DNA from: Lachnospiraceae bacterium
GTDB lineage: Bacteria; Bacillota; Clostridia; Lachnospirales; Lachnospiraceae
Length of the DNA: 64,000 nt
Reading direction: 5' to 3'
NCBI GenBank assembly: GCA_022793375.1
Contig: JAAWCS010000077.1
Span: 1 to 64,000, forward strand
The stretch's first letter is position 1, and the number at the start of each line of letters is the position of its first letter. A model generated the notes under the pieces. It ran no database searches. It worked only from the letters and a program-made list of their open reading frames with translations, and was not told the DNA's origin. Below are positions 42,773 through 58,102 of the stretch, one piece after another. A program made the translations under genes and the position numbers.

Positions 42773-42814
42773 CCCATCCTACAAATCCCAAATCCGCGTG
42801 GTATTGTATTATGA

Positions 42815-42990
42815 ACATCAGGCAGGTCTTCTGGCTCAAAGATCACAGCCGGCCGCCGCCTTCCCGGTTTCCCAGTGGCATAAATGGCGGCCCGCTCCCT
42901 TTACACAGCGACGGGTTCGCACAGGATTTCCACCTGTTTCCCTTTTAATCCCGGGCCGTTTGCATATCTCCCGGGAACCTGTTGCCCTTT
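42815..42990 (-). ncRNA. Cobalamin riboswitch
   Basis: Minus strand: GGAAACAGGTGGAAATCCTGTGCGAACCCGTCGCTGTG...GCCACTGGGAAACCGGGAAGGC...GAGCCAGAAGACCTGCC. Confidence 0.93.
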
Positions 42991-43106
42991 TCTTTTTTAT
43001 TTGATTGTTTCGGCCGTCTCGCCGGCAAAGCGGCGCTGCCGCCGCATCCTTCTGGCGCCTCTGCCTTACGGCCTGCGCCAATCATCGGACCGCTTCTGCC
43101 GCCCGG

Positions 43107-56340: not shown

Positions 56341-56484
56341 GGTTCTTCTTTTTCTCCTTTTGGGGTGGTTTATGCACTGGTGCGGTGGTTGCTTCTTGTT
56401 ATTAGGGATGGGGTTATAAGGGGCAGGTTGTTTCGGGAGGGGGCGGCGGGTTGCGGGGTGGGATGGGACGGGGAGGGGCGGGAC

Positions 56485-56633
56485 GCCGTGCGCCCTGGGC
56501 AGGTCCTGTCCGGGCGCGCTCTCGCTCCGTGGCGGACGCAGCGGTGCTAAGTTCGCACTTCGCCTGCGGCTCGCGCTCACTAAGTACCGGCGTCCGCCAA
56601 GGGCCCGGTCACGACCTGCCCAGGGCTCACGGC
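56485..56633. repeat. Palindromic element A (149 nt)
   Basis: GCCGTG-c-GCCCTGGGCAGGTC ... GACCTGCCCAGGGC-t-CACGGC outer stem, inner TGGCGGACGC/GCGTCCGCCA stem. Confidence 0.9.
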
Positions 56634-56915
56634 TGTTACGCTCCACGTTCCCATAACAGCCGGCAACGGCAGGCGGCCATGAAAGGTTGATGCTTCAAGG
56701 CTGTTTATTATAACTGTATAGCACTTCAAACAGTTTTTTGGACGTAGGCTGCGGGTTGCAAGCTGTGGAATTATAGACTACGGCTATAGGGTCATAAAAC
56801 ACCGGCCGCAGGCCCCGATTCAGGAATGAGGAGCAAAGAAAGAACTCTGTGCAATCCTTCCCTCTCGGGGCACCCTAAATTGGGCGGCAATGCGGTAGAA
56901 GCGGGACGGCGACAG

Positions 56916-57062
56916 CCCGGCGCCCTGGTGCGGTCATGACCGGGCCCTTTCCAAACGCCGGCCCTTGGTGAGCGCGAGCCGCAGGCGAAGTGCGAACCTA
57001 GTGCCGCTGCGTTTGGAACGGAGCGAGAGCGCGCCCGGACAGGACCGCACCAGGGCGCCGGG
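56916..57062. repeat. Palindromic element B (147 nt), inverted copy related to A
   Basis: CCCGGCGCCCTGGTGCGGTC ... GACCGCACCAGGGCGCCGGG perfect 20-bp outer stem, inner TTCCAAACGC/GCGTTTGGAA stem; shares core GCGAGCCGCAGGCGAAGTGCGAA (reverse complement) with A. Confidence 0.9.
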
Positions 57063-57079
57063 CGTTCCCCCTCCCCCTC

Positions 57080-58102
57080 CTACCGCATCCCCCCACACCT
57101 ACGGCAAGCCACGAAATGCCCTCCTCCCACATCCGTCAGCTCCGGATACGTTTCGTTACATCCCTTCTCCGCGCAGTAACACCGCGGCGCGAAATAGCAC
57201 CCCGGCCCATTGTCGATCGGCGTCGGCGGTTCACCTTCGATGGCGATCGCCTCCTGCTTTTCCAGCGGATTCAGGGAGGCGCAGTTGGAGATCAGCACCT
57301 TAGTATAGGGATGCTGCGGATTGTGAAGCACCTCGTCGGTGGGCCCCATTTCCACAATGCGGCCAAGATACATAACCGCTACTTTATCGGAAATATAGCG
57401 GGTTGTGGCAATGTCATGGCTGATAAATACCAGGGCCGTGTTTTTCTGCTTTACAAGATTCTCCAGCATATTGATGATATCGGCCCGGATCGAGACGTCG
57501 AGCATCGAAACCGGCTCGTCGGCCACCATGAAGGTGGGGTTTAAAAGCATTGACCGCAGAATCGCGATCCGCTGCAGCTGGCCGCCGGACAGTTCGTGCG
57601 GGAAACGGTCTACATAGTCGATCGCCGGCGTCAGGCCGCTCTTCTCAAGAACCTCCAGCACCATCTGCATGCGCTCTTCCTCCGATGCGCCGATGCCGTG
57701 CAGCTTCATCGGATCCATGAGGATCTTTTTCAGCCGGTAGCGGGGGTCGAAGGTGTCAAAGGGATTCTGGAAAATCATCTGGCAGTTGCGCCTGAATTTC
57801 AGCGGGTCCTTTTTTAAGAGTTCCTGGCTCGACTCGCCAAAAAGGCGGATATCGCCGCCCGTAGGGGGCTCTAAGTGAATCAGCAGGCGGCCCAGCGTGG
57901 ACTTGCCGCAGCCCGATTCTCCGATCACGCCCAGCGTTTCGCCGCGTTTCAGCCGAAAGCTGACGCCGTCCACGGCCTTGATCTGCTGGCGGCGCTGTAC
58001 CTTGCCGTCCTTCTTCTGTACTTTTTTCTGGACATACCATTTTTTGACTTGCTCTACTTCGATTACGTATTGCGAATTTTCAGGCGCGCTCATTTCCTTC
58101 AC
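57080..58102 (-). CDS. Oligopeptide/dipeptide ABC transporter ATP-binding protein (DppF-like)
   Basis: GESGCGKSTLGRLL, ELSGGQLQRIAILRSM, C-terminal oligo_HPY-type Cys-rich region (CYFAPRCYCAEKGC). Confidence 0.95.
   Translation of the reverse strand: MKEMSAPENSQYVIEVEQVKKWYVQKKVQKKDGKVQRRQQIKAVDGVSFRLKRGETLGVIGESGCGKSTLGRLLIHLEPPTGGDIRLFGESSQELLKKDPLKFRRNCQMIFQNPFDTFDPRYRLKKILMDPMKLHGIGASEEERMQMVLEVLEKSGLTPAIDYVDRFPHELSGGQLQRIAILRSMLLNPTFMVADEPVSMLDVSIRADIINMLENLVKQKNTALVFISHDIATTRYISDKVAVMYLGRIVEMGPTDEVLHNPQHPYTKVLISNCASLNPLEKQEAIAIEGEPPTPIDNGPGCYFAPRCYCAEKGCNETYPELTDVGGGHFVACRRCGGMR

Follow-up and report, generated by a model that had tools for sequence, protein, structure and literature searches.

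Elements A and B, two inverted sequences in a 64 000-nucleotide stretch of DNA from a Lachnospiraceae bacterium (the window; assembly GCA_022793375.1, contig JAAWCS010000077.1, positions 1 to 64,000), on balance probably make up a single copy of a mobile, non-autonomous repeat, of which each is one head. The repeat would have a strand-specific, selected core and stems that are kept complementary mainly by template switching, and it would resemble MITEs and REP/BIME pairs.

Element A (56485–56633) and element B (56916–57062) are oppositely oriented copies of the same element, the element-sense strand being the minus strand for A and the plus strand for B. The inverted homology of about 148 nt given in a preliminary description was confirmed, its true extent being slightly greater: 56471–56636 and 56912–57077 form an inverted repeat of 166 nt with 82% identity. 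Measured from foot to foot, A spans 56480–56636 on the minus strand (5′ foot ACAGCC at 56631–56636, 3′ foot GGCGTCCC at 56480–56487, both in the minus-strand reading) and B spans 56912–57069 on the plus strand (5′ foot ACAGCC at 56912–56917, 3′ foot GGCGTTCCC at 57061–57069). A purine-rich outer tail is seen in the sequence on the 3′ side of A (56440–56479), as in units of the congener G006, and a pyrimidine-rich outer tail, recognized from the sequence and the inverted repeat, lies on the 3′ side of B (57067–57097). The 5′ sides face each other across a spacer (56637–56911); neither the spacer nor the elements occur at this site in the congener G001. The pair is flanked by an oligopeptide ABC transporter ATPase gene (57080–58102, minus strand) and, beside A, by an M14-type carboxypeptidase gene (start at ∼56338, minus strand). 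Elsewhere in the window a cobalamin riboswitch was located by Rfam search (42804–42997, minus strand, 124.1 bits).

Folded alone, A and B each gave −103 to −111 kcal/mol on either strand (z scores of −9.1 to −10.7), none of 200 shuffles being as stable, and the predicted folds of both are the same three-way junction. According to the folds and alignments, the plan on the element strand runs from the foot ACAGCC through the outer stem P1 (about 20 to 28 bp in the A/B plan) into the three-way junction, P2 and P3, and returns through the second P1 arm to the foot GGCGTC. The apex of P2 (CGCCGGTACTTAGTGAGC...GCGAACTTAGTACCGCTGCG) is conserved and contains a U.U mismatch and tandem G.A mismatches, and P3 is the hairpin GGAGCGAGAGCGCG. 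In A the two arms of the hypervariable P1 (56485–56515 and 56603–56633) form an inverted repeat of 31 nt that is 90% complementary and shows two-sided changes across copies; P2 (56527–56602, minus strand) combines a variable lower helix of the GGCGGA type with the conserved apex (CGCCGGTACTTAGTGAGC...GCGAACTTAGCACCGCTGCG; inverted repeat, fold and alignment), and P3 (56516–56529, minus strand) closes on a GNRA-type loop, GAGA (sequence and fold). In B the corresponding parts are P2 at 56946–57021 on the plus strand, with a lower helix of the TTCCAA type and the conserved apex (inverted repeat, fold and alignment), and P3, again GGAGCGAGAGCGCG, at 57020–57033 on the plus strand (sequence and fold). 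The outer helix described earlier is present but was drawn too short; it actually reaches the feet ACAGCC and GGCGTC and in some cases passes them. In the inner helix the outer ∼6 bp (TGGCGG/TTCCAA) are indeed variable, but the adjoining ACGC is conserved, and the core previously read as unpaired consists of a small GNRA hairpin and an apical arm that is paired and has tandem G.A mismatches.

When G000, the genome to which the window belongs, was searched with blastn, 19 matches were obtained, five inverted pairs among them. A covariance model of the 99 nt core (R1) was built from 41 copies and matched A at 56510–56608 on the minus strand (112.9 bits) and B at 56940–57038 on the plus strand (111.9 bits). 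With this model, for which E-values are rough, 15 matches were obtained in G000 and 69, at least 150, 16 and 43 in four other genomes; the covariance-model search that had been proposed as a check of the element therefore returned many genomic copies, together with the strong covariation given below. The repeat family is restricted to Lachnospiraceae within the scans made. It was found in 120 of the 299 Lachnospiraceae genera sampled, at most 13 candidates being scored per genome, and in a class-wide scan eight of 341 genomes were positive, all eight of them in Lachnospiraceae and none outside. Of the named records in which the core pattern occurs exactly, the majority carry the label Lachnospiraceae and some are labelled Blautia, Roseburia, Robinsoniella, Butyrivibrio or otherwise; most of these records are metagenome-assembled, and most of the genomes used are draft or metagenome-assembled. 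A phage or viral element was considered and rejected, the core pattern having matched no viral contig.

The element matched no family in Rfam 15 at either the curated gathering or loose thresholds, in agreement with the earlier statement that it could not be assigned to a known RNA family; the only matches at loose thresholds were to plant-type microRNAs, far under their cut-offs. No description of a Lachnospiraceae MITE or intergenic palindrome matching the element was found in the open-licence literature. The element appears to represent an undescribed, abundant repeat family of common gut bacteria. Some related-looking sequences were noted in passing. A tandem repeat of ∼95 nt at G000 contig ends (L016 14–135 on C18 and L015 67–93 on C47) contains pieces that resemble the element apex (CTTAGTGCGAACTTA, GAGCCGCAGGCGAAG), the C18 copy adjoining the end of a phosphoglycerate-kinase-like gene. 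Apex-like stretches also lie at about 1505 and 2087 of L024 in G025 (CTTGATGAGCGCGAGCCGCAGGCGAAG; CTTAATGAGC...GCGAATTTAG), between ribosomal protein operon genes, where the core model gave no match. In L085–L093 of G231 part of the 5′ flank of the hairpin is conserved between copies, several of which have CCTGTAGTATCACAAAACTGCGGCGGCGGAATT, and L088 has this part in duplicate.

Copies occur singly or as divergent pairs. Among 31 pairs of neighbouring copies less than 2 kb apart, 27 were divergent, with 5′ sides facing, two were ++, two were −− and none was +− (P = 6e-13). Each of the five pairs in G000 joins a head with a GC-rich P2 (GGCGGA or GCCGGA) to one with an AT-rich P2 (TCCAAA or TACAAA). 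In G001, which belongs to the window's genus, the same two genes are separated by an intergenic gap of 33 nt, compared with ∼740 bp in the window; in the congener G004 element B is kept and an apparent deletion remnant lies at the site of A. In G006 the pair is a dispersed unit of ∼0.65 kb. The flanks of the 19 G006 pairs that were fetched all differ, and most of the pairs share the spacer and the purine- and pyrimidine-rich tails; a few, such as L245, L250, L253 and L256, have diverged. Dispersed copies, unrelated flanks and an empty site, by which a non-autonomous mobile element is generally recognized, are thus all found here.

Just outside the G006 units L238, L239, L242, L243 and L248 there is promoter-like sequence (of the GACGGACTTCGTCCGATAAGGTATAAT kind) pointing away from the unit, which may belong to the unit or represent promoters of the host. 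In L005 (1632–2577, contig C1 of G000) a pair 0.96 kb apart surrounds a type IV pilin-like gene, and both of its heads have orthologues in G004. The idea of a gene cassette between two elements was discarded: the wider pairs enclose ordinary, unrelated host genes and no transposase. The orientations of neighbouring genes are mixed (43 tandem same, 40 tandem opposite, 28 divergent and 22 convergent), which makes a shared cis-regulatory role unlikely; a cis-regulatory leader or terminator was rejected on this ground.

A link to a transposase was found in one lineage. In G081 the core lies inside palindromes of ∼258 bp ending in GTTACTTTTCATGGGGTGGGGAAA, and 52 forward and 52 reverse matches to these terminal repeats were counted, compared with 0 and 0 for a control pattern. 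Target duplications of 8 bp were exact in three of the copies checked, were one base off in two and were absent from the others. The genome also carries a resident 2.3 kb element with the same ends that encodes a 581-residue transposase of the IS66 type (PF03050, 1.5e-17) and lacks the core. Because of the shared ends, the 8 bp duplications and the resident IS66-type transposase, a DDE transposase may move the element in this lineage. Target duplications were not clear in any genome outside G081, and an IS66-type partner for all lineages was rejected, no PF03050 match being obtained in G000, G001, G004, G022, G095 or G231; in G006 only a short fragment matched. At the thresholds used (1e-8 for PF01797) the window's genome gave no match to either PF03050 or PF01797. 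A Y1/RAYT partner was rejected as well, since in a set of 299 genomes its presence was not associated with that of the element (odds ratio 0.81, P = 0.41). Recurrent neighbour proteins were also considered as partners and dismissed; the largest clusters look like common host families and not like a transposase.

The paired differences in the helices, on which the preliminary description was founded, are real. In the 99 nt core (41 copies) 26 of 33 pairs showed two-sided changes, with a covariation of 0.467 compared with 0.185 for shuffled and at most 0.102 for slid controls. In P1 (17 copies from the window's genus) two-sided changes were present in 19 of 29 pairs, 94.9% of cells were paired and covariation was 0.565, compared with 0.166 shuffled and at most 0.128 slid. 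In the 13 copies from G000, identity was 52% in the P1 arms and 85% in the core, and each copy keeps 16 to 18 of 18 Watson–Crick pairs in P1. In G115 a core of ∼89 nt is nearly identical in all copies; the outer arms are copy-specific and mostly still pair.

Stems selected as RNA are expected to tolerate G.U over A.C on the functional strand and to change mostly by transition-type replacements. Isolated mismatches with three Watson–Crick pairs on each side were therefore counted in a simple gapped extension from the core, with G.U and A.C scored alike. In unique contexts the variable stems contained 61 G.U and 53 A.C mismatches (P = 0.51), counts that are not independent across related copies, and in the model alignment inner P1 and lower P2 together contained 21 and 26, respectively. 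Nearest copies differed by 137 two-sided changes (96 transversion-type and 41 transition-type) versus 63 one-sided changes, the ratio of 96 to 41 being near the 2:1 of random replacement. A conflicting count was obtained for the one-sided changes between nearest copies (29 G.U versus six A.C), which derives from repeated comparisons in few genomes, and more weight was given to the larger unique-context count. Three orthologous heads of G000 and G004 showed six two-sided Watson–Crick replacements (four transversion-type and two transition-type), one base pair lost from both arms and a few one-sided differences. In a fourth (L019 versus L003) the arms have decayed in G004, so correction of the arms is not universal.

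It has been proposed that compensatory changes in hairpins can arise by template switching (PMC8794818). Change by whole Watson–Crick pairs, mostly of the transversion type and with G.U not commoner than A.C, points to template-switch copying of DNA rather than to selection on RNA, and the stem pattern agrees with the correction of long DNA palindromes by template switching (quasipalindrome correction), which we infer from sequence comparison. It had been suggested that the helices reflect selection on a folded RNA or on a hairpin or cruciform DNA. For the variable helices the RNA half of this suggestion is not supported in the form given (61 versus 53 mismatches; 96 versus 41 changes); the DNA half comes closer for the stems, since their changes fit correction of DNA palindromes.

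The core behaves otherwise. In the model alignment P3 contained 53 G.U cells and one A.C, most of them in one column, and the P2 apex contained 55 G.U and 35 A.C, 20 of the 35 being in one column that is apparently misaligned. The P3 loop could be parsed in 237 of 254 elements and was GNRA in all 237 (GAGA 173, GGGA 29, GAAA 26, GGAA four, GCAA three and GCGA two), with a purine at loop position 3 in every case; these core counts overstate independence because the copies are related by descent. The core looks like a strand-specific fold, and to that extent the earlier suggestion of a folded structure is supported. The GNRA loops, the purine at loop position 3, the conserved G.A mismatches and the excess of G.U in P3 and the P2 apex indicate that the core is probably a folded RNA with the sequence of the element strand.

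On this reading each head would be a long DNA palindrome whose conserved three-way-junction core acts on one strand, and the units would be moved in trans by resident transposases, of the IS66 type in one lineage. Selection would keep the core as a folded RNA or, less likely, as folded single-stranded DNA, and the variable stems would be under little sequence constraint. A mutation in one arm would be copied across to the other or restored by template switching when the palindrome is replicated, so that the pairs would change together; the compensatory pattern of the stems would then be mainly a mutational product and the core the selected part.

It is unlikely, in our estimation, that the whole element including the stems is a structured RNA (a small RNA or an mRNA-processing element) and that the stem covariation comes from selection on RNA pairing. 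The pairing of 95% of P1 cells at a pairwise arm identity of 52% would be expected of such an RNA, as would the GNRA loops, the G.A mismatches and the low folding energy, but G.U is not commoner than A.C in P1 and lower P2, the two-sided changes (96 transversion-type versus 41 transition-type) do not follow a G.U path and the neighbouring genes have no consistent orientation. We give a similarly low chance to a purely DNA structure, a cruciform or folded single strand recognized by a structure-specific transposase or recombinase by a logic like that of attC or IS200/IS605 and with no RNA involved. The symmetric mismatch spectrum of the stems and the REP-like dispersal and pairing agree with it, and a preference for one strand is also expected of single-stranded DNA; the core, however, is biased to one strand with a purine always at loop position 3, as in RNA GNRA loops, and no association between the element and a Y1 transposase was seen in the 299 genomes (odds ratio 0.81, P = 0.41).

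Very unlikely is an origin of the copy differences in recombination among a pool of variants, by gene conversion of whole heads instead of correction within the palindrome. There are many copies per genome, and the five G000 pairs join GC-rich and AT-rich P2 subtypes, so variants do circulate, but orthologous heads differ in few scattered pairs, including a 1 bp deletion matched in both arms, and this weakens the explanation because conversion of whole heads would not readily yield such differences. Quite unlikely, as an extension of the preferred reading of a mobile repeat with a selected core and template-switched stems, is that the core is a new class of RNA, made from the many mobile copies in Lachnospiraceae, that directly helps to move or target the repeat (by binding a transposase, for example), with the template-switched stem as a copy-specific double-stranded handle.

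Among known systems, REP, BIME and REPIN repeats are associated with RAYT and tagged with GTAG, and REPs are 20–40 nt long with one short stem (PMC3733652). They are high-copy intergenic palindromes, often in inverted pairs, and heterodimers are preferred in most families; CGTC-tagged REPs, with a stem of 8–9 bp and a loop of 4–5 nt, have no known transposase (PMC3733652). The element is likewise a high-copy intergenic palindrome that often occurs in inverted pairs with unlike heads joined. Its head is longer than a REP (∼150 nt or more), contains a three-way junction and has a stem of about 20–40 bp or more. In contrast to GTAG-tagged REPs and REPINs, the copies in the window have no GTAG foot and the genome has no PF01797 match at 1e-8. 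CGTC is present in the foot GGCGTC of the window's genus and some others, as in CGTC-tagged REPs, but neither G022 nor G115 has this foot, no tag common to the whole family was found and the stem and loop sizes are not 8–9 bp and 4–5 nt.

The ∼258 bp palindrome of G081, with its GTTACTTTTCATGGGGTGGGGAAA ends, its 8 bp duplications and a resident IS66-type element with the same ends, is like MITEs of the IS66 family; the copies in the window, unlike these, do not have such ends, and PF03050 was not matched in their genome. Correia/NEMIS and other structured bacterial MITEs are 100–200 nt long, have terminal inverted repeats and can be transcribed and fold. The element resembles them in size and folding, by description only; to our knowledge they have no conserved three-way-junction core or copy-specific stems. 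Hairpins maintained by template switching have been described mainly in the histories of rRNA and microRNA, with simultaneous multi-base compensatory changes and with perfect stems produced by copying one arm from the other (PMC8794818), which the stems described here resemble. Unlike in those cases, the process would here act on a mobile repeat with many parallel copies.

Within one molecule, covarying helices that show no signs of RNA selection stand beside a core that does show them, and this combination is found throughout a large natural family. That a sequence functions as an RNA is ordinarily proved by compensatory base changes. The many parallel copies offer a means of measuring how much covariation is due to DNA template switching, and with it how far RNA discovery based on covariation can be misled. 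For the gut bacteria themselves, the elements make up an abundant repeat family with a conserved core, apparently undescribed until now.
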